DNA of 64,000 nt, taken from positions 202,700,978-202,764,977 of the forward strand of contig CP136066.1 of assembly GCA_032622095.1 (NCBI GenBank), read 5' to 3'. Source of the stretch: Siphonodentalium dalli (Eukaryota; Mollusca; Scaphopoda; Gadilida; Siphonodentaliidae). A model generated the notes under the pieces. That model ran no database searches. It was not told the origin of the DNA and was given only the letters and a program-made list of their open reading frames with translations. Each line of letters starts with the position of its first letter. Positions within the stretch are counted from its first letter, which is position 1. Below are positions 6,421-61,110 of the stretch, piece after piece. The translations under genes were made by a program, and so were the position numbers.

Positions 6421-6759
6421 TGGCCAAAAGTAGGAAAATATGCCAAATTTTGGTCTAAAAACAACAAAAGTTCAAACTAATGTTGTGTTATGTACCTACC
6501 CCCTCCCCTTGTCACCAGGTCCCCGGAGGTAGGTGTGCGTATTTCGCAAGACGAGCACCTAAATATATATATATATCTTTATTCCTCCATATAATGAAGA
6601 GCATATATATAAACATCTATATCTATATTTGCGAATGTCTGTCTGTGTTCTATAGAAATTCACAGGGGACCATCTAGATGATGCCAAAGAGGTCTACTAT
6701 GAGTAACTTTTTACGAGAAAGATAATGGTCGGGGTTAAAATTTTCTAAAGTGACGCCGT

Positions 6760-7484
6760 TGTTGTCAGGGGCAGAAAAGGGGGAGGGGCAGAAAAAAAAA
6801 TTGTCGGCGATTGCCACGAAACTTATATATAATCATCCCCATACTATGAGGAATCTAATGGTGTGTTTTAAATATGGCAAAAGTCGCGCCGTTCGCGTCA
6901 GGGGTGCCCGGAAGGGAGAGGGGCAGAATTGTTTTCTGTCGCCGATTGCCACGAAACTTACATATAATCATCCCCATGATATGAAGAATCCAACGGTGTG
7001 GTTTAAATATGTCAAAAGTGGCGTCGTTCGAGTCAGATTTGCACGAATGGGGAGAGGGGCACCAAAATTGATAAAACTAATTTTAGCGCCGATTTCCACC
7101 AAATTGATATATATTCTTCTTCATGATACAAGGAATCTAATTGTGCGATTTAACAACGCCAAATTGTTGTCGTTTGGATAAGAGATTGGGAGGGGGTGGG
7201 CACTAAATTTGATAATAATTGGTTTAGTCGCCGATTGCCACCACACTTAAACAAAAGCATCCCCATGGTATGATGAGTCTAATGGTGTGGCTTATATCTG
7301 TCAAGTGTGGCCTCATTCGAATCAGGGGTGTATTGAAAGGGACAGGGGCACCAAAATTGATGCACAATTTTTTTGGCGCCAATTTCCACCAAATTGATAC
7401 ACGTTCTTATCCATGATACGAGGAATCTGATCGTGTGATTTAAAGACGCCATATATAGTGGTGCTGTTTAGGTGAGAGATGGGG
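6760..7484. repeat. Diverged tandem repeat, about 140 bp, five units
   Basis: Each unit contains a GGGGCA(C/G)-start, a CGCCGATT(G/T)CCAC block, a CATCCCCATGATATGA-type block and a GTGGTTTAAATATG-type block. Units begin near 6786, 6919, 7056, 7197 and 7345. Two related units lie at 12700-13010. The last unit is cut at 7485 by the left end of the foldback element. Confidence 0.75.
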
Positions 7485-8499
7485 ATGCAACTTTATTTTG
7501 TATATTAAATGATCATTGGAGCAATTAAATATGCAATTATTGGGGTCCTAACCCCTTCCGATCCCTCAAAAATTCGATTTTACAGAACGCAGTACAAAAT
7601 TTTACAAAAAATCACAATTGGGATTCTAGTCATATTTCAACAAGAAATGAAAAGGAACATTGTAATGTAAGTGAGGCATATCATTACCTATGAATATTCC
7701 AAATCTCTGGAACCATAAATATTACCTTGGCTCAAAATGGCTGCGAAAATGGCCGCCAAAATATGGAAAATGGTAAATATTGCCCCAGGGTGTCCTGCAA
7801 TCGCTTACAAGTTGTGGTTGATGTACACAATTGGCTAATCTGTTTTCTATACATCGCATACTAACATGTCTGATGCACCATGGATCATTTTTACTATTGT
7901 CACCACTGACATCACCAGAAATATTGGATTTTTCTCTCACAAACTTGACATAAATATCGGCAAAAATTCACTTTTCAGGGTTGGACCATTTGTTCAAGTA
8001 ACATGTAACTATCTTTGGATTGAAAGGTGTTTATTGTTTTGGTCTATCTTAAATGTGTCACACTACGGTGTTTATAGACTAAATTGCTCAAGATGGCTTC
8101 CAAAATGGCAACCAAATTTGTTAAAAGTTAAAGTATCCCGAACATTATTCTCTGCGTTATCCGAAAAAGGTGGCAAATTGTGACTCACTTGGTTATTGTA
8201 CGTGTTAGTTACAATGTAATTAACTGACAACTACGTTCTATTATGTTTGTCTCAGTTCCGTATGGGGCATGACAAATTCATTTTAAAGTTGCAGTATGGA
8301 ATTTTGCGGAGAACCTCTTTTGTGATTCTGGCCATATTATTGAAAGGAAATGGGCAGAACTTTGAGACGGAACTGAGATGAACCATGATATGTGGGTATT
8401 CTGACCCATTATGATAAAAATTTATCAACTGGATGCAGGGTGGAAGCCAAGATGACAGCCAGGGAGTTACTCTATGATAATAGATGAGGATAATAGGTA

Positions 8500-9106
8500 G
8501 TAGATAATACAGGGAGTTATTGTATGGTCATGAATGATGTGTGGGTATATATGGAGTGCCCTGTTGGTAACGGTGGGACGTATATTTATATATGTTGTGG
8601 ATGTGTTATCATTGGTGGTGTATGGGGAGTAGATTTATTATCATGGATGGCGTGTATGAGTATGGCAAGTATGGAACTTATGAGTGGTCGTATGTGCGGA
8701 TATTGGTATATCTGGAAGGGCACGCCATTGGTGGTGTGCATACGTATACCTGGATTGACTCCATGGTCATGGGTATGGCGAATATGTATACACGTAGTGG
8801 CTGTATGGTCCATGGTGAGGTGAATATGTATACAATGAGTGACTGTATGATCGTGAATGTAGTGAATATGTATACATACAGTGACTATATGTGTCGGTGT
8901 AGGTGTATACCCGGTGTTCAAGCATGGTGACTCGTGGCTGTATCGTCATTTGTGGTATGTACGGGTATAACCAAGTATGGCTGTATGATCAGGTGTACTA
9001 GTACATGTACGTGTATAAAGTGGGTGACTATGTTGTCATTTGTGTGGTGGTGTTTATGTACATATGGAGTGACTGGAGTAATGGGTGGGTTGTACATGTG
9101 TACCTT
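8500..9106 (+). repeat. Minisatellite, about 40 bp, left arm of the foldback
   Basis: Degenerate units built from GAATATGTATAC, AGTGACTGTATG and TCATGG alternate about every 36-41 bp. The same units in the complementary orientation fill 9192-10850. All open frames here are products of the repeat. Confidence 0.8.
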
Positions 9107-9191
9107 GGGTGGCTATCGCTTTCCACAATAACTCAATGATATGTTAATCAATAGAGAGGTCATGTCATATCGTGGAAAGCGATAGCCACCC
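9107..9191. repeat. Central 20-bp perfect hairpin of the foldback
   Basis: GGGTGGCTATCGCTTTCCAC at 9107-9126 is matched by its exact complement at 9172-9191 with a 45-base loop. It marks the switch in orientation of the minisatellite and is much better preserved than the outer arms. Confidence 0.9.
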
Positions 9192-10850
9192 ATTAGCACA
9201 CAGTCATTACATATATACATAAACACCACAGCCATTACAATATAGTGACCCACTGACTACATGTACACCTGACCCATGACCACGGGTGACCATACAGCCA
9301 CGCATCACAGTGCAGGCACACCGGGTATACTCCAAAACATGACCCATAACCATATAGTCACTCATTGTATACCCATTCATCTCACCATTGGCCACAAGGT
9401 CATCCCCTGTATACCTATTCTCCAAACGCATGGTCAAATAGTCAATCAATATATACATCAACACCACAACAATGACCATAAAGTCACTCCGGTATACATA
9501 TGCACATCACCAATGGCCATATAGCCACTCGCTTCATACACATACCCTCACCCATGTTACCTGGTATATTCCTTCACCTGACCTGTGGCCATATAGTCAC
9601 CCCGTGTGTACCTATTCAAAACATTCATACACGATCATGGTCAATCCTTGTATATATATTCACCTCAACATTGGCCATGTCAATCCCTGTATCCCTATTT
9701 GTCACACCATAGCCGAATAGCCACTCAAGATATACTAATACACACAGCCATGTCAGTATAGTCACTCCATGTATGCATATGCACCTCATCCATGGCCATA
9801 TAGCCACTCGCTATATACACATATCCCTCGCCCATGGCAATAAAGCAACACGTGTGTGTACTGGTATAACCTACACGTGATGATACCGAGACGAGTCACC
9901 AAACAAGAACACCAGGTGCATGTATACTCATACGCCTGTCACCCCCTGTATAGCTGTTCATTACATTTATGATCAGACTGTCACTACTTGTATACCTACA
10001 TGTACTCATATCACCATTAACCATACAGTCACTACCTGTATACCTATTCGACACACATAGTCATATAACCACTCGATATACATATGCAGCCCACCCTAGA
10101 CCATAGATTCACTCCAGGTATACATGTAAACCTCAGTAATGCCCATTCAGCCCTTCCAGATATACAAAAAATATACGACCACTCAAACAATCCATACTTG
10201 CATATACACCTCACACATGACAATTCAGCAATTCACTGTATAATCATACACGCCATCCATGATAATACAACTAAGCCCTATACACCCACCAATGATAATA
10301 CATCCACGAGATATATAAATATACATCCCACCCGTTACCACAAGGACACTCCCTATGTACCCACACGCTCGATAATGTCCACCCAGCTTAATCCAGGTAT
10401 TCATATTCAATCATGACCGTACAGTCATTCCATGTATACCTATACACATTACCCGTAACCATAAAATCACTACCTATTTATCCACACACCCCATCCATGA
10501 TCATACAGACAACACATGTACATCCCACCCATGACCTTACAGTCACTCCATATATACATAATCAACACATAGATGACCATGTAGCTATATCCATACACCA
10601 CACCAATGACCGGGTGCACCCGTGCTGGATATACACAATCATACACCATACAGTCACTACATGCATACCGATTCACCCCACACCTGACCATGACCTCTCC
10701 CTGTATACCTAGATGCATCTTACCATGGACAACTCACTCATAACCATATAGTCACTCATTGTATACCTACTCACATCAGTCATGACATACAATAACTCCC
10801 TGTATACCTATTCACCTCACATATGATCACAGAGTAACTCCCTGGCTACG
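9192..10850 (-). repeat. Minisatellite, about 40 bp, right arm of the foldback
   Basis: Units of the form CCATATAGTCACTC, GTATACCTATTCACC, CATGACC recur about every 36-41 bp, for example near 9472, 9513 and 9585. They are complementary to the left-arm array but extend about 2.7 times further, so copy number has drifted after the palindrome formed. Confidence 0.8.
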
Positions 10851-11796
10851 GTCTTGGCATCCACACTGTATCCTGTTGACATTTTTTTTTATCATAATGG
10901 ACCAGAATAGCCAAAGATTATGGTCCATCTCAGTTCTGTCTCAAAGTTCTGCCCACTTTCTTTCAATAAATATGGCCAAAATCACAAAAGAGGTTCTCGG
11001 CAAAATTACATACTTTAAAATGAATTTGTCATGCCCCATACGGAACTGGGACAACTGGGAATAGAACATGTAGTTGTTAGTTAATTAACTAACACGTGTA
11101 ATAACCAAGTGAGTTACAATTTGCTACCTTTTCGGATAATGCAGAGAATGTTCGGGATATATGTAAAAAATTACTATTTTACATATTTGGTTGCCATTTT
11201 GGAAGCCATCTTGAGCAATTTGGTCTATAAACACCGTAGTGTGACACATTTATGATAGACCAAAACAATAAACACCTTTCAATCCAAAGATAGTTATATT
11301 TTACGTGAAAAAATGGTCCAAACCTGAAAACTGAATTTTTGCCAATATTTATGTCAAGTTTGTGAGAGAAAAGTCCAATATTTTTGACGATGTCAGTGGT
11401 GAAAATAGTAACAATTAACCATGGTGCATCAGACATGTTAGTATTCAATGTATATAATGCAGAATAGCCAATTGTGTACATCAACACAACTTGTAAGCGA
11501 TTGCAGGACACGCAGGTGTAATATTTACCATTTTCCATATTTTGGCGGCCATATTGGCAGCCATTTTGAGCCAAAGTAAGAATTTTTGTTCCAGTAATTT
11601 GGAATAATCATAGGTAATGATATGCCTCACTTACATTACAAAGTTCTGTTCATTTATTGTTGAAATATGTGAAATTTTATACCGCATTCTGTACAATCGA
11701 ATTTTTGAGGGATCGGAAAGGGTTAGGACCCCAATAATTGCATATTTAATTGCTCCAATGATCATTTAATATACAAAACACAAAATAAAGTTGCAT

Positions 11797-12229
11797 TACT
11801 CAAACAGTTCCAAACAGCATGAATTGATCTAGAAGATATTTGTGAAAAAATGTCATATTTTCAACTTCTGGCGGTCATTTTGGTGGCCATCTTGGATGGT
11901 GAGTTTCAATTTTGGCCCATAAAAGTGTCATTATGTCTTATCTTCACGAAAATATATACATTTATATACATTTTACAAGATTTTCCAGCTATAATTTTCA
12001 TAAAAATGGCTCACTTATAGTTCTAGAAAATGGATCGGGTTGTGGGGGGGGGGGGGGGTACAAGTCTCGTTATTATCAGAAAACGACATGAATATATATT
12101 TCGTAAGTTGATCGTATCGATTTGGGGATGTATTGGTTGTAATAGTGCAACGTTCCATGGGTGTGCGCGCATACACACACGTTGGACGAATGCAGTCATG
12201 TAAATAAAAGTGATTTTTTACGTTTGAGG
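11797..12229. other. Non-coding with a long G-run
   Basis: The first part has repeat-like text (GGCGGTCATTTTGGTGGCCA). A G homopolymer lies at about 12042-12058. No gene seen. Confidence 0.4.
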
Positions 12230-12660
12230 GGTGACCCGATGACCCCCTTCTTGACTTAAAACCCCAGGAAAAGTTGCTTCTTAAGTTGTGTTTTTATAAT
12301 TAGTATATATCAAAGTACTTTGAGACCAAAAATTATGGATGTACGCGAAAGTGTAAAAAAAAAAGAGTGAAAAATCACGTTTTGGGGTTCAGCATGGGAC
12401 CCCCTTTCTTATCTGAAAACCCCAGGAAAAACCCTTTCTTAAGTTGTGTTTTCTTAATCAGTACACTTAGGAGTATCATCAAACCAAAATTCATCGATGT
12501 ACGCAGAAGTGTAAATAGAAGTGATTTTTGGCACTTTTTGGGGTTCAGCGGCCCCTAGACCCCAGGAATGCGCAACTTAAGAAATCGTTTTTTCAGAATG
12601 TTCCATTATTGGTACCAACTTTAGGGGGTCAAACCTTTTGTACGCAAAAGTGTAAATAGA
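12230..12660. repeat. Diverged tandem repeat, about 150 bp, three units
   Basis: Each unit carries GACCCC, AAACCCCAGGAAAA, CTTAAGTTGTG and GTACGC.AAAGTGTAAATAGA-type blocks. Units start near 12235, 12380 and 12530. No protein-like conservation is seen between units. Confidence 0.7.
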
Positions 12661-12699
12661 ACATATGCGGGCTCCCTAACTATTAGTGTGTGCAGCTTG

Positions 12700-13010
12700 A
12701 GTCCGAAATAGGGACGGGAGGGTCACCAAAAACTGATACAAAATATTTTTAGTACCAATTACCATCAAATTCAAACACGTTCTTCTCAAATGATACAAGA
12801 AATCAAATTGTGCTGTCTGTCTGTCTTTCTGTATGTCTGTGTGTTCTATATATAACTTCACGCGGTACAATCGAAGAGGCAAAAGCTGATACAAATATAC
12901 TTGGCACTAATTTCCAACAAATTCATACATGTTTTTATCTAATGATATACCATGAATTAAGTCACATTTGGTGTCGTTTGCGTCACGGATGGCGAGCGGA
13001 TGTGCACTAT
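12700..13010. repeat. Two decayed units related to the 6760-7484 tandem repeat
   Basis: CACCAAAAACTGATACAAAA, TACCATCAAATTCA and ATGATACAAGAAATC match the 7056-7440 units. They lie on the far side of the foldback element at 7485-11796. A short CTGT run is at 12813-12842. Confidence 0.6.
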
Positions 13011-14073
13011 CATAGATAAGATTGCTATTCGACGATATCCACATATAAGTTATATATAGTCACCCAGGCCATCTCCATATCATTTTAAGATTTGGGCATT
13101 CACATTTCACGATCCAGACAAATGGTAATCCACTTATAAGTCACTTGAACAATTATATCTTCTTAATTGTCATATTTATATGGGGATGGCAATCAGGACA
13201 TTCACACAATGAGCTATGAAAAAGAGATACATAGAAGAAGCTTAAACGTATATTTATCATTCTATTGAAGAGATACATATATTCGTGCAAACTGAGAGAC
13301 CTCGAACCGTCAGAGGATTGCATATATATATTATAACAAAATTGAGTCTGTTCCATTCAATACAGTTTCCACAAAAAAAGTTACAATTTGTCAGGATATA
13401 TTGAAGGCCTGTTCAAAAATAGTGGTCACAGTGTGCAGCCATATATAGTTTCTTCTGATATACAATAAAATGCAGTTAGTAGCACATGACTTTTCAGGAT
13501 CCTCCCAATACTGACAACTGACAAGGGGTTTAGAACAGACTCATCGACTGACATAAACAACTCAAAATCTCGCTCTGTGTCTGGCAAATGTAGCTGATAT
13601 GCACGCGCAGCAACATTTCGATGAAACTGAGAATATTTAGCCAATATATAGCACCATAAACAGAGGAGCATCTGGAAATTTCTTGAAAACATCTGTATCT
13701 ACATGGATGTATCATCGAGATCTTAGTCCAACCCACTAGATTGATTGATACATCTCAATATGTAAAACCCAATTGTCATCTTTTATTTGTGCGAACTAAT
13801 GTCTTTGTGATGTCCATGTATCATATTATAACGTCTGACGTACACGCAGTTGTAAATAAATAAATACTTCATTATTGGTGGAACGGATTAATCGCGATAA
13901 ACAGAATGACAATTGACAAGGTGGGCCACTACTTATATTCCATGACTGTAATAATCATGTTTTGTGATGCTATTTGAATATACAATTTATGAGAAAACGT
14001 ATAACACATTGAACAAGAGTGTTCTCTATTCCCAACAAATATCCACAGCATACAGACGATTTCACATCGCATT
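13011..14073. other. No gene recognised
   Basis: A minus-strand open frame at 13426-13692 shows no known domain, and neighbouring frames are broken. I see no repeat match within the window. Confidence 0.4.
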
Positions 14074-22872: not shown

Positions 22873-23020
22873 GACTAGTCCAACAAATTAGACGATTCGG
22901 ATTTAAGACATATTTTAATATTTGGACATTTATGTTGCCTTAATAAGGAATAAGATAATCGTAAATGTCCAAATATTAAAATATATCTTAATCCGAATAG
23001 TCTAATTTGTTGGACTAGTC
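22873..23020. mobile_element. 148-bp hairpin MITE
   Basis: GACTAGTCCAACAAATTAGA at the left pairs with its near complement at the right, and TTTGGACATTTA pairs with TAAATGTCCAAA near the loop. The trinucleotide GGA flanks both ends. A related GGACATTTACGA hairpin lies at 40375-40440. Confidence 0.75.
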
Positions 23021-28560: not shown

Positions 28561-29030
28561 GTACCGACGATATTTGATGAGATTGCAAAATATAGGGGGA
28601 GGGTAAGCTTAATGAGAATAACTTATAAATATTAAATCACAAAGCATAATGCTTTGTAATAAACAAACCAAGCATACATTTTTCTACCTAACAAACCATA
28701 CCGCATCCATTTTCGATGTACGGTCTCCAAGTTATGACAATTTTTACTCCGATTCTGACGCGAAATGGCAATTTGGTGTTTTGGCTATACTTTTCAACAC
28801 CATATACTGAGCATATAGCCTTAAATATCCTTGCGTTTTGCCTAGGAGGGTGTATCCCAATGCAAATTGAACTGATTTGTGATGAATATCGTCTTTTCAA
28901 GCGATGTGTGAGGTTTATTTTCATCCTGTGTTCTGACTAAGTTTTATGATATCGGATACTTCACTATATATTTGTCTTAAACATCTTGTCTTGCAGTATA
29001 TCATTCCCACAATGAATTTCTCAAGTTAAA

Positions 29031-29534
29031 TTATATTGCATGTGTATATATGTCTTCATGTAACTTTTGTATATATATATATTGTACCATAATGGTCTCC
29101 ATATTTGGAGGAATAAACATATCTCTCTCAAGAGCCTCTGGCTCACCACCTGTCAGAGTAGAGTTTATGACCTCGTCAGTTTCATAAAATTCACTACATA
29201 TAATATCACCTGTTTCTTGAACACAATCACAAAGTTCGGACAAAATGTTTGAATTTAAGTTTTCAAATTCTAATTCAGAATCTGATTTATATAAAGGTTT
29301 ATGTATTAACTTTTCAGAATCCTGTGAATTCTGATTGAGAAATTCTGATTTTGAATTAAGACTATCACTTGAGAGTGATGCTGTTGGTTCATTACTAATT
29401 TGATTTGATTGAGATTCATTTGAAATCACATCTCTGTGTCCATTTGCCTGTGAATTATTCAGCAAGTATTGAGGATAAAACATGTTGCCAATGGATTTAA
29501 CTCTGTGAAATTTGAAATGGGCTTGTCTAGTCAT
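29031..29534 (-). CDS. Gag-position open frame of a DIRS-like element (left arm copy)
   Basis: An open frame of about 167 residues from the first ATG (MTRQAHFKFHRVKSIG...). It is rich in Ser, Asn and acidic residues and has no recognised domain. In the other arm the same frame precedes a DIRS-like reverse transcriptase, so it probably represents the Gag-like ORF or leader of that element. This copy is intact while the right-arm copy is broken by a 37-base deletion. Function unknown. Confidence 0.4.
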   Translation of the reverse strand: MTRQAHFKFHRVKSIGNMFYPQYLLNNSQANGHRDVISNESQSNQISNEPTASLSSDSLNSKSEFLNQNSQDSEKLIHKPLYKSDSELEFENLNSNILSELCDCVQETGDIICSEFYETDEVINSTLTGGEPEALERDMFIPPNMETIMVQYIYIQKLHEDIYTHAI

Positions 29535-29993
29535 CTTTGCGTGGTAAATGGACAGGCAAGTGAACACTCAGGGTGAGTTACTTTCTCTTTCTTTTCTTTA
29601 TCTTGAACACATCATTGCATTGTGCATCTGATTCTGTCTCTCTGGATTATTTTCGACTCACGCATGTTGCACACGTAACTTTCTGACCCACCAATGTTAT
29701 GGAACTGTTGCCATTATCTGTCCACTTCATGAAAGGCTGAAATGATACAGAATTTGAAGCATTTAATTTTAATTTATAAATAATTTACATAATAATGATT
29801 TATTCTCATGACACATGACAGATGCGTATGGAGATTAACATAACTTATATACAAAAATTGGTAACAAGTATATATATATACAATATGTACAAATGTATGG
29901 CGGCATTGGAGATCATGTAGTTACGATTAGAATATTATATGTACTCGAAATGTTTAATACGTATCAAATACTAAATAGTTCAGATGGTATATG

Positions 29994-30237
29994 TCAACCA
30001 GGCGGATTTTCGTCGAACCTCTTAAAAATGGTATGTATAAATTTGCATAGACGCCGTATTTGGCATGGGTTTTGTACATTGAGAAGTTCATCCATTGTTG
30101 TAATGTTTGGTCTATTCAGGTATTCTTTTGATATATGACATTTTCTCTCGCGCTCAAGCGCTTCACATTCAAATAGGTAATGGAATTCGTCTCCTAGTCT
30201 GTTATATCTACATAGCGGGCTACTGGTATACATACAG
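29994..30237 (-). pseudogene. LINE 3' tail with zinc-binding motif (left copy)
   Basis: The minus-strand translation includes PLCRYNRLGDEFHYLFECEA, the C-x-N...DEFHYLFEC pattern of the C-terminal zinc-binding region of non-LTR retrotransposons, followed by a stop at ENPPG. Only about 80 residues of the ORF are present, so it is a severely 5'-truncated copy. It lies immediately inside the inner edge of the inverted duplication. Confidence 0.75.
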
Positions 30238-30247
30238 GTTACTGGTA

Positions 30248-30836
30248 TAAAATATTTTATATTGCAGTACCACACCACTCACCAGTGCCTACATTGGCAA
30301 AGCATGTACTATTCAATTGTTATAATATAATAAATAAGGCTAATGATATTATATTTCAACGCAGCTGACCAGTACGTGTATAAATTATAATTATTGCCCA
30401 CTCAGTCTCAGTCGCAATGCCATTTATTAACATTATGCATTATGAATGTGATTATATCCTCTAAATTGAGTCTAATGATAGGGATGTTCATGAAAAATTA
30501 AAATTGTTATAATCTATTCATTTTTGTGCTTATTTTGTAGATCTCACCATGCTGGTCACAGAACCTAAAACCTTTTTCAGATTCGTCAAATATTTTTTGA
30601 GTTACGGACATTTTAGTACCCCAAAAATGGGTCGTTTTTTAAGATTTTGGAGTCCCTAATTTTGCCATATTGTCAAAATATGGTAAAAAGCAGATTTTAG
30701 GGTAAATTATTTTTAAAAATACACAATAATTTAGTTTGTTTTCACTAAATAAGTGGTTAACCTACTGGGTAGAGCACAATAGTACATTATTTCATACCTT
30801 TTTTTTCGTTCTTGATCATTAAGGTATGAAATAATG
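30248..30836. other. Spacer of the inverted duplication
   Basis: 589 bp of AT-rich sequence not present in the arms. Near its right end GTACATTATTTCATACCTT (30782-30800) pairs with its complement (30821-30839), giving a hairpin that touches the start of the right arm. No gene. Confidence 0.7.
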
Positions 30837-30846
30837 TACCAGTAAC

Positions 30847-31090
30847 CTGTATGTATACCAGTAGCCCGCTATGTAGATATAACAGACTAGGAGACGAATT
30901 CCATTACCTATTTGAATGTGAAGCGCTTGAGCGCGAGAGAAAATGTCATATATCAAAAGAATACCTGAATAGACCAAACATTACAACAATGGATGAACTT
31001 CTCAATGTACAAAACCCATGCCAAATACGGCGTCTATGCAAATTTATACATACCATTTTTAAGAGGTTCGACGAAAATCCGCCTGGTTGA
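30847..31090 (+). pseudogene. LINE 3' tail with zinc-binding motif (right copy)
   Basis: The plus-strand partner of 29994-30237; the protein sequence is the same over the compared length, including GDEFHYLFECEALE. A stop follows ENPPG. It is an inactive 5'-truncated tail. Confidence 0.75.
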
Positions 31091-31549
31091 CATATACCAT
31101 CTGAACTATTTAGTATTGGATACGTATTAAACATTTCGAGTACATATAATATTCTAATCGTAACTACATGATCTCCAATGCCGCCATACATTTGTACATA
31201 TTGTATATATATATACTTGTTACCAATTTTTGTATATAAGTTATGTTAATCTCCATACGCATCTGTCATGTGTCATGAGAATAAATCATTATTATGTAAA
31301 TTATTTATAAATTAAAATTAAATGCTTCAAATTCTGTATCATTTCAGCCTTTCATGAAGTGGACAGATAATGGCAACAGTTCCATAACATTGGTGGGTCA
31401 GAAAGTTACGTGTGCAACATGCGTGAGTCGAAAATAATCCAGAGAGACAGAATCAGATGCACAATGCAATGATGTGTTCAAGATAGAGAAAAGAAAGAGA
31501 AAGTAACCCACCCTGAGTGTTCACTTGCCTGTCCATTTACCACGCAAAG

Positions 31550-32016
31550 ATGACTAGACAAGCCCATTTCAAATTTCACAGAGTTAAATCCATTGGCAAC
31601 ATGTTTTATCCTCAATACTTGCTGAATAATAATCTCAATCAAATCAAATTAGTAATGAACCAACAGCATCACTCTCAAGTGATAGTCTTAATTCAAAATC
31701 AGAATTTCTCAATCAGAATTCACAGGATTCTGAAAAGTTAATACATAAACCTTTATATAAATCAGATTCTGAATTAGAATTTGAAAACTTAAATTCAAAC
31801 ATTTTGTCCGAACTTTGTGATTGTGTTCAAGAAACAGGTGATATTATATGTAGTGAATTTTATGAAACTGACGAGGTCATAAACTCTACTCTGACAGGTG
31901 GTGAGCCAGAGGCTCTTGAGAGAGATATGTTTATTCCTCCAAATATGGAGACCATTATGGTACAATATATATATATACAAAAGTTACATGAAGACATATA
32001 TACACATGCAATATAA
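31550..32016 (+). pseudogene. Gag-position frame, broken by a 37-base deletion (right arm copy)
   Basis: It starts like the left-arm frame (MTRQAHFKFHRVKSIG) but after LLNN a 37-base deletion shifts the frame. The original frame resumes about 31750 (ELCDCVQETGDIICSEF) and ends at 32016. The deletion postdates the duplication or was lost only from this arm. Confidence 0.6.
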
Positions 32017-32291
32017 TTTAACTTGAGAAATTCATTGTGGGAATGATATACTGCAAGACAAGATGTTTAAGACAAATATATAGTGAAGTATCCGATATCA
32101 TAAAACTTAGTCAGAACACAGGATGAAAATAAACCTCACACATCGCTTGAAAAGACGATATTCATCACAAATCAGTTCAATTTGCATTGGGATACACCCT
32201 CCTAGGCAAAACGCAAGGAATGTATCGCTATTCATGCTGTCAAGAAAGGTAAAAGTTTCAATTCCAAATATGTCAATCAGTGAATACCAAA

Positions 32292-33479
32292 ATGTGTTCC
32301 GTACCATCTGTGCAAACTCGGATGTACACTCGAGATATCTATGAAACAAGAAATTCTATACTCAGATCAGGGAAATATAATTTTGAAGAATGTCAATTAC
32401 CAGTGGAGAGCCATTTAAACATAGAAAAAATTAAAGATATGTTGTTGTATTATGAAGACAGTGAACTTTGTCAGTTACTTGAATATGGTTTTCCAATTAG
32501 CTTTGTTAAACCTCAACATATTGTAAACCAGGCAGTCAAAAATCATAAAGGCGCCCGGGAATTTCAGTCATATATGGATTCTTACATAAGCAAGGAGCTT
32601 GAATCAGGATCTATCGTTGGACCATTTCATTCTAATCCTTTCAATTGTGGTATTAATATTAACCCATTAAATACAGTGCCAAAGAACAATGTCTTGGAAA
32701 GGCGCACAATAATGGATTTAAGTTTTCCAAAGGGAAATTCTGTCAATGAAGGTGTCCCCAAAGACATGTATCTTGGGAAACATGTCAAAGTTAAGTTTCC
32801 TTCTGTGGACAACCTTGTAGAATTAATCAAGTTAAAAGGGAGGTCTTCATTACTCTTTCAAGTGGACTTATCCCGGGCTTATAGACAAATATATTTAGAC
32901 CCGGGGGACATTCACTTAGTAGCATTTAAACGGAAAGACAAAATTTATTGTGATCTTGTTTTGAGCATGGGTCTCCGATCAGCCGATTATCTATGTCAAC
33001 GTGTTACTAACGCTGTAGCTTATTCTTGCAAATCCATAGGGTGCAGCATAGTAAACTACATTGACGACCTTGCAGGGGTAGATACGCCAGAGCGGGCAGA
33101 GCAATCCTTTCAGAACTTGCGTGAGGTACTGTTTAATTGGGGCTTGACCGAGTCTATTCACAAGGCTTGTCCACCTTCCACGAAAATGGTCTTTCTAGGT
33201 ATTGGTTTTGACACGGTCGAGCTAACTCTCCAAATTACAGAAGAAAGGCTGAAAGAAATAATTGATCTAGTGAATAATTGGTTATATAAGGAGTCAGCCT
33301 TCTTAAAGGAAGTTCAATCTCTAATTGGTAAATTAAATTTTGTATCCTCTTGTGTACGGCCTGGGGTCAATACTATGAAACTTTTTCTTTGTAAGAATCT
33401 ACAATTGTTTGTAAGAAATAACAATTTATCATTCCGCCAATACTATGAACCTACGATTACAAACATAAATCACAAATAG
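32292..33479 (+). pseudogene. DIRS-like (tyrosine-recombinase) retrotransposon reverse transcriptase, 3'-truncated
   Basis: The first ATG in the frame is 32292 (the frame opens at a GTG, 32280). The product is about 395 residues. Signature blocks appear in order: NHKGAREF, GPFHSNPFN, VPKNN...RRTIMDLSFPKG, FQVDLSRAYRQIYLDPGD, LSMGLRSADYLCQRV, VNYIDDL with the catalytic YIDD (codons near 33057), then KMVFLGIGFDT and KEVQSLIGKLNFVSSCVRPG. This set is characteristic of DIRS/Ngaro RTs rather than LINE or Gypsy RTs. RNase H, methyltransferase and tyrosine recombinase, which should follow, are missing: similarity ends near 33400 and the frame stops at 33479. The RT core itself is open with no internal stop. 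Confidence 0.9.
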
Positions 33480-36050: not shown

Positions 36051-36634
36051 ATTTCCTTAGTCATATAGCGGTGAATATTAAAGAGCGTCCCTAAATAAAT
36101 GCTTTATTCTTATTCTAACCGTATGATTACTATATACACGTTCGCCGCGGATTTAGTTTAAATTCAGGAGTCGTGCTATTTTTCGCTCATTTTAGTTTTA
36201 AATTCGCGCACCGACGGATGCGCGAAAAATTAATTTAAATCGAGCAAGGTGTGCCTATCCGTAAAATGTTTTTTTTTTTTTTTTTTTGCAGATGAGTTTC
36301 TTTTGAAAAAAACGTATTTTGATCTACATTGTAATATCTTTTGATAATTATGAACATTTTTGTCCAGAGTGTGTGCCTTATATGGCCTACTGTCTGGTAA
36401 TTTGATTCTCAATGTTTATTGATAACTTGATACGGTAAATAAATATAATTCCACAGCGCCGTATAGCAGAAAAATGAGTTCTCCCCGAGATGATTGACAG
36501 GCTGTGTGTGTCCGTCAATGATTGTCGTTTAGAAGCAGCCAATTGTGCACGCGGGTTTGGCATGTTCTCGTTTTGTTAACCGTAAATCCTTTGTGTTCAT
36601 TTTTGAGCATATAACAATCATAAATCGTGTCATA
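36051..36634 (+). promoter_or_regulatory. Upstream region and probable 5' UTR of CREBZF
   Basis: A poly-T run lies at 36270-36287 and a partial palindrome (AATTCGCGCA...TGCGCGAAAAATT) at about 36200-36230. A CCAAT pentamer sits at 36539-36543, about 90 bases before the start codon, next to GTGCACGCG. No TATA box was found at a sensible distance. The reading frame is open upstream to 36545 but contains no earlier ATG. Promoter assignment is inference from position. Confidence 0.4.
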
Positions 36635-37999
36635 ATGTGTTCATTCCCCGGACACTTTGTGGAAGATTATGACGTAAGTAATATGGGTGTGTTGAGTCCC
36701 CCAATGGATGAAATAGGTAGCGGGAGCATTTTCGAAGATTACAGTCTTGCATCGAAAATGGGTGATATAAATAGTGGTCTGTCGCTCAATTCAGATATAT
36801 CAGATTCTAACTCTTGCCCTGAATTCCCAGACGCTGACGATGAACTCTTCAGCTATCTGAATGGCTCTTCGAATAATGATGATTCTCCTATTTGTTTGGA
36901 TACAAATCACAATGAAACTGTTCACGATCAACTTAAAGTCGATACCAGTTCAATTTCTTGTCGTCGTCGGCACAAGAAGAAGACATCTATGAAAACATGC
37001 CAAACTCATTCCAGTCGCAAAACGTCACATAATGCCCAGTTGAATTCGGTTGATGTTGTGACTACATCAACCAATGATTGTTTTTCATTTGGTAAAAAAC
37101 TAAGACCCTTAGCACCAGCTACAAATAAAGTTAAACATGCAAAAATTGAAGACACACTGGAAAATGTTTTTTTGGTTAATCATCGTACTGGGCGAGGACT
37201 CTGCATGACACAAGCAGCAATTCTCGCAAGAGAGAACAGGATAAAGAAAAAATCCGAAGCAAAGTCTTTGGGAACAAAATATGAAGAAGTATCAAATGAA
37301 AATGAAGTTTTGAAGCAAAGTCTGTCTAATGCTGATAAAGAAGTTGAAAATCTGCGGAAAGAAGTTAAGTACCTCAAAGGTATTCTAACGAATCACAGTA
37401 CCATTTCACATTTGCTAAGAAATATTGTTAACATGAAAGGATTCACATTCCATACATCACTACCATGTGACAATACACCAAATACAAATGCTAAGTCATC
37501 ATCACCATTCAATGAAATAGATCATTCAAATGAGTCCACAGATGTGAAGAATCCCACCTACCAAGCTGACATTCCACTTCACAACTGTTTGAAAAGAGCT
37601 CACAATGATACTGAACCAGTCGCAACTAAATTAAGAAAGACCAGTACAAAAATTGACTGCGTAAGCACACAGGAAAACCAAGAAACCAGTTTTGAATCTT
37701 GTGACAGTGGGATTCATGCTGATGCTTCGGAGATTGTCCAAGTCACCCAAGTTTCTGATGTCCTTGTTGCCCAAGATGCCAAAGTCTTGAACCAGTTGTC
37801 AGATGGCAGTGACACAGGGCGTAAAGGGAAGGTATGCACTGATGATAGCAGCATTCTGGAGGATGTTGATGATTCTTTTGGAGTCTGTTTGCATGTTTCC
37901 AACAAGTCCGTTTCTCTAGAGTTTTGTGCTGATTGCAATGAAAATGCATCTGCTGTTAGAGTTGACCATGCTTATACAAGGTTGTTGTCACAGCAGTAA
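36635..37999 (+). CDS. CREBZF: CREBZF / Zhangfei-like bZIP transcription factor
   Basis: A complete, intronless frame of 454 residues; human CREBZF is shorter (about 354). ATG 36635 is the first Met in frame and has A at -3. The N-terminus is acidic (EFPDADDELFSYL, near residue 70), followed by a basic cluster CRRRHKKK (109-116) that may be a nuclear signal. The basic region RGLCMTQAAILARENRIKKK lies near 187-206. The usual N-x2-AA-x2-x-R pattern has Met 191 where bZIP proteins carry Asn, and lack of this Asn is a known trait of CREBZF. A coiled-coil zipper runs to about 255, ending KEVKYLKGILTNH. The C-terminal block FGVCLHVSNKSVSLEFCADC (from residue 415) matches the conserved CREBZF tail. 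DHAY (444-447) fits the HCF-1 binding motif (D/E)HxY. By family knowledge it acts in the nucleus as a partner and repressor of other bZIP factors and binds HCF-1. Confidence 0.92.
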   Translation: MCSFPGHFVEDYDVSNMGVLSPPMDEIGSGSIFEDYSLASKMGDINSGLSLNSDISDSNSCPEFPDADDELFSYLNGSSNNDDSPICLDTNHNETVHDQLKVDTSSISCRRRHKKKTSMKTCQTHSSRKTSHNAQLNSVDVVTTSTNDCFSFGKKLRPLAPATNKVKHAKIEDTLENVFLVNHRTGRGLCMTQAAILARENRIKKKSEAKSLGTKYEEVSNENEVLKQSLSNADKEVENLRKEVKYLKGILTNHSTISHLLRNIVNMKGFTFHTSLPCDNTPNTNAKSSSPFNEIDHSNESTDVKNPTYQADIPLHNCLKRAHNDTEPVATKLRKTSTKIDCVSTQENQETSFESCDSGIHADASEIVQVTQVSDVLVAQDAKVLNQLSDGSDTGRKGKVCTDDSSILEDVDDSFGVCLHVSNKSVSLEFCADCNENASAVRVDHAYTRLLSQQ

Positions 38000-57515: not shown

Positions 57516-57713
57516 AACCACGTTTATTGAACTTTTTATCTGAACATTTCCCGCCAATGAATAGGAATAGAAATCATCCTGGCCTTTCAATTATCTGTTG
57601 TTTATATTTCCTGAACATCCCTCCAGATGAATAATAGACCATTCCAATGTATACTTTTATAACTGAATGGGAGAATACATTTAGTATAGAAGGGTTAACA
57701 GGGACATATTAGT

Positions 57714-58274
57714 TTAAAGATGGATTATCTCTTATAACAATTTTTAAATAGTTTCATGGGTATAAAATAATAATTATGAATTTAAGACCCCTGTCCTGAA
57801 ACGCTTCTATCAGTTGGTGTTGATTTTATTTCGAATATTTTATTATAAAATGAGATGATTTAATGGGACACTTTATTGTTCTATTTTTAGAACAGACCAT
57901 TCAGGCGATACCATTTATGTAGTGGTAAAGATCATTATGGTGTTCCCATAAATATGCTCCGAACGTCAAATTACCCAGATTGATTTGTATTGTTTATTCC
58001 ATAGTTATAAATGATAATAAGTGTTAATGAGTCTAATTAACATTTATTTGTGACAAAATTACACGATCAAATTTATGGTCTCTGTTAACAGTAACCACTA
58101 TTGTTTGTTAGCTAAACAATCACAAGTTTTTAGACCAGAAAATGTTTTAAATATAATCAATATTAATCGATAGAAGCATTTCCGGACAGGGGTCTTCGAA
58201 TCATATCTAGTATTTTATACTCTGGTAACTACATGTATATAGCGTATGTTTACAAAGAGATAGACCATCTTTAA
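57714..58274. repeat. Foldback repeat, TTTAAAGATGG ends
   Basis: The left arm 57714-57850 and right arm 58135-58274 pair imperfectly: TTAAAGATGGATTATCTCTT with AAGAGATAGACCATCTTTAA, and AAGACCCCTGTCCTGAAACG with its near complement. The 280-bp middle is not symmetrical. Likely an old non-autonomous DNA element. Confidence 0.75.
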
Positions 58275-58699: not shown

Positions 58700-61110
58700 A
58701 AGAAAAAAAAGTTTCATTTTCAATGTGTCTTTTCATGTTGACATAATTGTTCAACCACCCTTTAGTCCAGTGCATTTATGGTTTTACCCAGAACTAATTG
58801 CAACAGAATTTTTTTTTGCTGGAATTGGTACATATACCCTCCGTAAACAACATACTAAAAATCGGCAAAAATCGGAAAAAGGGAAATTAGTGAATTTCGT
58901 GGAAAATAAATTGGGAAAATTTGGTCAAATCATCAATATATGGATTTTCATGAATGTATATACAAAATTCAAATTTACAAGTTCTACAAATATCATGCCT
59001 ATTTTGTCGACCACATTTTCCTGAATCCAGAACTGGAAACCATTCCCAGATTCCTTAAGTATTTTTCGAGTTGTGTGCTTTCAAAAACGCGAGTTTACCT
59101 GATTTTGGAGCCTTAATTTCGCAGAATGAGCCAAATGCCGTATTATATGGTTAATTATTTAAAAAACTAGTGCCAAATTAATGACCTTTTCATTGTTTTA
59201 GCAATTTCCTCACTAGATTAAACACAAAATAGGATTAATATGTGCATCTATGAATAAGGAGAATAAAATATTCTCAAACAAAATGTGTGTTCCATTGTAT
59301 GGACTTAGCCAAATTTGCCTTGCCACAGAACTTGTGTGATGAAATGCCATATTTGAGGTCATGTAACTCAATAAATTAATATCCATATGCTCTGCTTTTC
59401 TCATAATATCTTGAGAATACTAGATTGAAGAAATTGTGAAGTAATTTCCAAATACATTGGTGAATAAAATAAAATTATGGTCCTATGAACTCTTAGTCTA
59501 GCCTCTTTTCCGAAAATGCTATTGTGGGGCATTTTTGTCAATTTTAAAAGGATTTTAGGCATATTAAGAATAATTAACGAAAGTTTATTGTGTAAAATTA
59601 TGTGATCTGTCCTCTTAAATCATTTTTTTGTTGAGAAAATAGCATTTCAATGGTTATACCAATGAATGTCACTGGATTTCACTCATCATTATGGAAACTT
59701 ACTCCAAATTTGAACGGCAGAACAATGGGGTAGGGGAAAGCATATCAACAAAAACTTCAAAATTATGCATCTTGAAGCATAAAACTTTATATTAACAGCT
59801 TCTGCTTACATTGTTCTTTCATGCATAATTTCATATTTCCTTTGTTTATGTTTATTGACAGAGCTATAATATTTGTTGTCATAATTTGGCAGTGAAATGT
59901 CAAATTGGCATTTTGAGATTGTTTTTATACAACATAACCATAAAGTTCTAAATCAACGTCCGATAACGTATTAAGCAGTTTTATAATGCAACAGGAATGT
60001 ACACAAACTGGAAGAAAACAACATTGTGTCTGAAATGGCTGTAATTTGGTGATAAGATTGCATTTTGTGATTTTTCCTACCCCTATACCAACGTTAAAAT
60101 TTGGAGTCAGTTTCCTGAAAAATGAAAGAAATCTAGTGACATACTATGGCATAACCAATGTAAGGCTAATTTGTTATCACTTACGTGTTGTGGGAGGAAA
60201 GTTCAAATAATTTTACACATTAAAACACCCATTGTTTTTTGTTTTTATGGCCCAAATCCTTTTAGAATGGACAAAAATGCCTCAAACTGGCATCTTTGGA
60301 AACAAGCTAAGACTAAGTATTCAAAGGGCCATAAGTTGATTTTCTTAAATAATGTCCTGTTAATACCTTTACAATTTGTTCAATCCAACATACTTAAAAG
60401 GTTATAAGAAACGCATGGCATATTGGTATTAAATTATTGAGTTACATGACCTCAAATATTGCATTTCATCACACACGTTCAGTGTCAGAGGCAAAATTGG
60501 CTAAGTCCATACAATGGAACACACATTTTGTTTGAGAATATAATCTTCTTCTTAATTATAGATGCACATATTAATCATATTTTGTGTTTAATCTAGTGAG
60601 GAAATTACTAAAACAGTGAAAAATCCCTTCAGTTTGCTCTAGTTTATTTTAATAATTAATCATTAATAAGGCATTTTGGCTCATTCTTCGAAAGTGAGGC
60701 CCCGAAAATGGGCCGAAATCAGGTAAACTTGCATTTTTGAAGGCACACAACTCGAAAAATACGTAATGAATCTGGGACTGGTTTTCAGTACTGGGTTCAG
60801 GAAACTGAGGACGACACAATACACATCCTTTTTGTAGGATTTGTGAATTTTATTGTTTTTATAAACATCCATGAAAATCCATAAATTATTGATGATTTGA
60901 CCAAATTTCCCCAAATTTATTTCACGAAATTCACCAATTTCCCTTTTTCCGATTTTTGCCGATTTTTAGTATGTTGTTTATGGAGGGTTTATGTACTTAC
61001 TCCAGCAAAAAAAAATTCTGTTGCAATTATTTCCGGGTTTGGCATTTTTTCTCATAAATGCACTGGACTACTTATCATCCATGTTTATTTCAAAGTCAAC
61101 ACTATATAAC
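58700..61110. mobile_element. Second large foldback element, 2.4 kb, diverged arms
   Basis: The left arm 58700-59745 and right arm 60075-61110 are inverted copies over their whole length. Examples are TTGCAACAGAATTTTTTTTT against its complement at 61006-61028, the CGGCAAAAATCGGAAAAAGG block against 60940-60965, the TTACATGACCTC block near 60440 against 59355, and TTTTAAAAGGATTTTAGGC against 60255. A middle of about 330 bp separates them. Divergence is visibly greater than in the 28.8-kb duplication. No transposase, no TSD identified. Confidence 0.8.

Follow-up and report, generated by a model that had tools for sequence, protein, structure and literature searches.

The inverted structure at positions 7485 to 12682 of the 64,000-nt stretch of Siphonodentalium dalli DNA analysed here (the window) is a truncated copy of a foldback family that is dispersed in hundreds of copies through the genome. 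The family is probably a non-autonomous foldback DNA transposon that originated once, is moved by a transposase supplied in trans, and has had its tips replaced on both sides together. Long inverted arms, internal tandem repeats and dispersed copies place it structurally among the foldback elements.

Organization of the window copy

Self-comparison of the window confirmed the inverted structure, with positions 7485-8558 matching the complement of 11796-10753 at 84% identity over 1098 aligned bases and the three outermost ungapped blocks of the arms being 91-95% complementary. Positions 7485 and 11796, given in a preliminary description as the extent of the element, proved to be the limits of the window's inverted repeat and not those of the element. 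Alignment with another copy, L009 (C1:16196748-16202743), was continuous over 5265 columns at 91.7% identity; the right arm extends to 12682, and the left arm breaks off at 7485, short of about 0.84 kb. On this alignment the window holds a subfamily A copy of 5198 bp out of about 6.0 kb (7485-12682) with a truncated left arm, rather than the intact element first described. Its right end, at 12682, reads ...CCCTAACTA.

From left to right, the copy begins with the unique part of the left arm, or beta arm (7485-8440, plus strand), which lacks its outer 0.84 kb or so and is adjoined at 7484 by unrelated repeat-rich sequence. There follow a short left minisatellite array of approximately 42-bp units (8500-9105, minus strand) and, beyond a central hairpin (9106-9192), a right array of similar units (9193-10880, plus strand). 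The section of the right arm, or alpha arm, that finds its complement in the left arm of this copy lies at 10886-11796 (minus strand, by self-comparison). Alignment with L009 assigns 11797-12682 (minus strand) to the outer right arm and the subfamily A tip, which ends TAGTTAGGGAGCCC when read from the right; this section is unpaired in the window copy because its left counterpart has been lost. A motif search located ACACTTTTGCGTAC, the first of the repeated subterminal motifs of the tip, at 12640-12653 and a repeat copy, ACACTTTCGCGTAC, about 300 bp further inward at 12341-12354, both on the minus strand.

The two arrays face opposite ways and differ in length, the right being far longer than the left: searching with a 31-base unit pattern at up to 11 mismatches, without a shuffled control, gave six unit matches at 8536-9049 and, on the opposite strand, 20 at 9197-10786. 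Where they meet, 9106-9130 pairs with 9168-9192 around a 37-base loop, 24 of the 25 positions being paired and the first 21 unbroken. Folded as single-stranded DNA, the 121 bases around this hairpin gave z = -7.5, and none of 200 shuffled sequences folded as well. One or both halves of the exact 13-bp core of the hairpin were present in 12 of 20 other copies, and both halves in five. The foldback layout of inverted arms, opposite-facing arrays and central hairpin was thus borne out.

Imperfect tandem repeats with spacings of about 135 and 289 bp occupy 6712-7485, extending as far as the truncated left arm, and may be a trace of its deletion. The word AANATGGC, which resembles the YY1 site, occurs 12 times in the element, between 7734 and 12003, against 0.9 expected (at most four in any of 30 simulated sequences), 12 to 14 times in three other copies, and 20 times in the rest of the window against 10.5 expected. 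Searching positions 6500-13500 against Rfam at gathering thresholds gave no match.

Copies, ends and target sites

The sequence ATGCAACTTTATTTTG was found exactly at 763 forward and 785 reverse places in the 2.23-Gb genome, compared with 7 and 7 for a reversed control. Among the first 100 places listed, 72 belonged to 36 pairs with the correct facing and spacings below 12 kb, and these pairs accounted for every case of neighbours at such a distance. The spacings of these listed pairs had a median of 4.3 kb; 30 of the 36 fell at 3.98-4.42 kb, clustering around 4.0 and around 4.3 kb, and the remaining six were longer. The preliminary suggestion of a foldback family, shown here to have many genomic copies, was supported. 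From the 36 listed pairs, 20 copies (L009-L028) were fetched, mostly from the start of C1 and with several odd-sized ones included. The solitary copy in the window would also permit an isolated inverted segmental duplication or an artefactual join in the assembly. This reading is refuted by the 20 dispersed copies, which repeat both the layout and the degree of divergence between arms, and we give it practically no credence.

ATGCAACTTTATTTTG itself had been put forward as the terminus of the element and was ruled out as such, since the inverted repeat continues outward beyond it in all 20 fetched copies. It is internal arm sequence; its distance to the true ends, measured in one copy of each of three subfamilies, is 841 bp in A, 398 bp in B and 397 bp in C. 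True ends were obtained from three wider regions, giving element lengths of 5996 bp (L009), 4843 bp (L010) and 5127 bp (L011, with ends placed at TAGTGGGG), and have the form 5'-TAGT...ACTA-3'.

The fetched copies comprised 11 of subfamily A, the type in the window, six of B and three of C. Sequence shared by A and B starts 635 bp inward of the end in A and 191 bp inward in B, and C joins A about 745 bp from the end of A and 301 bp from its own. The three tips all start with TAGT, reading TAGTTAGGGAGCCC, TAGTCCGGGAGCTAATA (one end having GGC for GGG) and TAGTGGGGGG. Outside the shared arm, comparison of the tips with each other, and with a second foldback in the window (58763-61070), yielded nothing better than E 0.12. 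Tip A was found at 330 and 342 places on the two strands, with 0 and 2 for its control. The 86 such places listed on C1 included 17 facing pairs, with spacings of 5.4-6.2 kb in 13 and of 1.95, 4.6, 6.8 and 7.0 kb in the other four, as well as two same-strand pairs within 15 kb. The stretch C1:10683785-10690037 and the tip A ends at C1 46675039, 56959856 and 81969795 have no exact ATGCAACTTTATTTTG within 7 kb, and the tip A ends at C1:162367674-162370025, just 1.95 kb apart, lie beyond the listed ATGCAACTTTATTTTG places. The three copies of subfamily C are approximately 98-99.6% identical in the same arm, which suggests that this subfamily is young.

Flanking sequence was compared in the eight of the 20 fetched copies for which both ends were available, the other 12 having one or both ends beyond the fetched stretch or off the end pattern. 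The three bases outside the TAGT ends were equal on both sides in six of the eight (cgt, cta, att, tta, ata and ttt) and unequal in L009 (A, agt/tac) and L019 (B, tta/gaa). Since each match is expected about once in 64 trials under even base use, six equal triplets in eight are far beyond chance. The six are all from B or C, and L009 was the only A copy in the test, so the target duplications looked for on the strength of the preliminary description were recovered for B and C and did not appear in the one A copy tested. Tc1/mariner elements duplicate the dinucleotide TA, and every end examined here starts with TA; a TA target duplication was nevertheless dropped as an interpretation, given the equality of the three bases outside TAGT in six of eight copies, which favours TA being part of the element. 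The two flanks of L011 match a repeat in the window to either side of a single point, at 57713-57788 (86%) and 57799-58124 (71%), and a further copy of it in L034. Both of these relatives of the target lack the element, and in place of the CTA of the filled copy they have CCC or TCC. These relatives are diverged and therefore show an uninterrupted site, not its exact letters.

Outside an insert in L013, no reading frame in the 21 copies (20 fetched and that of the window) exceeded 189 aa. Nine of the longest, from eight of the 21 copies, matched no Pfam family; no transposase was seen in the copies read and no transposase domain in the frames tested, as had been remarked for the window. Long-spaced pairs were considered as autonomous forms and rejected; they contain bases matching none of L009, L010 and L011 (5266 in L013, 536 in L019, 765 in L020, 1541 in L026 and 713 in L028), which were taken as insertions. 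Inverted ends, together with a complementary piece in the interior, give the 5.3-kb stretch at 3483-8748 of L013, a subfamily B copy, a layout that can be called DIRS-like by inference only; the four longest of its seven ORFs (at least 90 aa, stop to stop) matched no Pfam family.

History of the arms

Every arm was nearer to an arm of some other copy than to its own partner, in all 20 fetched copies and in the window. In a tree of the inner arms (38 arms, 19 copies) the 19 alpha arms formed one clade, with support of 1.0, that spans A, B and C; the inner arms fall into two old clades, alpha and beta, common to all three subfamilies. Since the alpha clade crosses the subfamilies, the foldback probably formed once, its arms diverging before the subfamilies arose. 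The outer arms, judged from their sequences, tend to group by subfamily. In their tree (37 arms) both C arms came together (0.998), as did both A arms (0.683), and alpha formed no clade; the two arms of B, among which those of L024 are affected by a deletion in this region, also formed none, and the alpha and beta arms of C were still apart (0.758 and 0.895). Both trees leave out L019 and L026, which carry an insertion in one arm, and the outer tree also leaves out the left arm of the window copy. In a separate tree of outer arms, a copy's own two arms were nearest neighbours for three A copies, L012 (0.451), L027 (0.857) and L028 (0.877), which hints at more recent arm-to-arm copying.

Identity between the two arms of a copy followed the same division. 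Inner arms were 79-88% alike and outer arms about 96%, with values of 0.962 outer and 0.878 inner in A (10 of 11 copies), 0.967 and 0.793 in B (four of six) and 0.957 and 0.874 in C (all three), L019, L024 and L026 being omitted. In A and C the drop starts near ATGCAACTTTATTTTG and is gradual, without a sharp breakpoint; in B it lies about 400 bp further inward and is steeper. Its position is much alike among copies of one subfamily.

The discordance between inner and outer trees is best explained by joint replacement of both tips through copying from arm to arm, the copying step itself being one that we infer. Under this model the foldback would have arisen once and its arms then drifted apart. 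A transposase from elsewhere would act on the tips and move the element in trans by cut and paste, whole elements being copied as units so that inner arms are not homogenised. Occasionally the outer 0.4-1 kb of one arm would be replaced, either through recombination with a different element or because a new tip is copied in, and the change would be passed to the other arm by gene conversion between arms or by snap-back repair. The outcome would be a new subfamily with new tips at both ends. Points against this model are the two copies with unequal flanks, the divergence of the relatives of the L011 target, the same-strand pairs of tip A places, the support of 0.683 for A, the lack of a B clade and the separation of the C arms in the outer tree, and the gradual change of identity in A and C.

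Another route to the same pattern, which we consider unlikely, is that an old immobile core was bracketed by the long tips of another transposon, separately for A, B and C, and then became mobile as one unit. Such capture would agree with the subfamily-specific tips, whose best match to one another beyond the shared arm is no stronger than E 0.12, and with the youth of both outer sides relative to the core. The homogenised tract of B, however, runs about 400 bp past ATGCAACTTTATTTTG into the arm common to A and C, and because this boundary between young and old sequence does not coincide with that between tip and shared arm, conversion within homologous arms fits better than bracketing insertions.

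Selection on transposase-binding sites might also keep outer arms alike without any copying. In tip A of L009, occurrences of a motif resembling TTTACACTTTYGCGTAC lie 27, 168 and 322 bp in from the left end, with three counterparts near the right end; at up to four mismatches the motif is absent from B and has one weak match in C, outside the C tips. The transposase of the Drosophila element Galileo is described as binding repeated sites in its long arms (PMC3688188), and by analogy the repeated tip A motifs may be binding sites. The gradual drop in A and C is also compatible with such selection. The tract that is alike, however, extends evenly over 100-base windows for 0.4-0.9 kb, identity in B drops within about 100-200 bp, and in the separate outer-arm tree the alpha arms of subfamily A are intermingled with its beta arms, all of which make this explanation very improbable beside joint tip replacement by copying between arms.

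It is an open question why certain transposons keep inverted arms of such great length. A tentative answer, to which we give somewhat less than even weight, is that foldbacks survive by changing their tips as a matched pair, one old core here having passed through at least three sets of tips and perhaps more than one transposase. If so, the long arms would be what allows a new tip for transposase recognition, once acquired at one end, to be copied to the other. The difference between the two inner arms serves as an internal record of which part of an arm was copied across, and when relative to the subfamily splits, and since a single genome holds hundreds of copies, the trading of tips by long arms is directly testable.

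Relation to known elements and other features of the window

Foldback (FB) elements of Drosophila and TU elements of sea urchins likewise have arms made of unique sequence and tandem repeats, together with longer target duplications and highly variable arrays, whereas 30 of the 36 listed spacings in the present family lie at 3.98-4.42 kb in two size classes. Mutator superfamily elements duplicate about 8-11 bp of target and PIF/Harbinger elements usually insert at TWA; the duplication here is 3 bp, and tta is the only TWA triplet among the six. A 3-bp duplication argues against both Mutator and the P superfamily, to which Galileo, with duplications of 7 bp, belongs. In published surveys, MuDR/IS256 is given a duplication of 4-10 bp, Zator one of 3 bp and AcademX one of 3-4 bp (PMC10045372), and 3 bp is listed for PIF/Harbinger and for EnSpm/CACTA, the latter with 5'-CAC...GTG-3' ends (PMC12730594). 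The length therefore fits PIF/Harbinger and EnSpm/CACTA, whose respective target and ends differ from those found here (TAGT...ACTA in place of CAC...GTG), and it fits Zator and AcademX, which were compared by duplication length alone.

Among described foldbacks, Galileo is reported to include copies whose two arms are of one subfamily and whose interior is of a different one, an exchange proposed there as a source of subfamilies, and to have 7-bp target duplications and arms that are 98-100% alike within a copy (PMC3573991). It resembles the present family in that its arms are long and internally repetitive, most of its copies are defective, and both subfamilies and mixed copies occur, and differs from it in that the family here has a 3-bp duplication, TAGT ends and inner arms just 79-88% alike. 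Tetris of Drosophila virilis is a non-autonomous foldback with tandem repeats in its arms and tips common to another element, represented by three structurally complete copies and no autonomous one; its repeats of about 220 bp and its duplications of 8-10 bp, for which Mutator was suggested (PMC4079207), set it apart from the roughly 42-bp units and 3-bp duplications found here, the transposase-free foldback form with tandem repeats inside the arms being common to both. Tm1 of root-knot nematodes also has a foldback structure and is assigned to Mutator in the title of the study (PMC3169594), an assignment that the 3-bp duplication found here does not fit. No foldback with 3-bp duplications was found in the open-licence literature searched, which does not prove that none exists. 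The family is new and its kind is known, and the principle of tip exchange is not wholly new given the mixed copies of Galileo.

The second foldback, at 58763-61070, is unrelated to the first and has arms of about 980 bp that are 80% alike, ends reading TAGTCCAGTGC and ctt on both flanks; it suggests a wider group of TAGT-ended foldbacks with a common type of transposase. A small palindrome at 22873-23020 carries GACTAGTCC at both ends and is flanked by gga left and right; were TAGTCC its end instead, the 3-bp flanks would be gac and gtc, which are unequal. Inverted repeats of 1.4 kb, 97% alike, lie at 28810-32238 and 32253-33479 and adjoin a reverse-transcriptase ORF (Pfam RVT_1, 1e-11), and look like a separate retroelement arrangement. 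Finally, an open frame of 488 codons at 36533-37999 has a weak bZIP match, below the Pfam cut-off.
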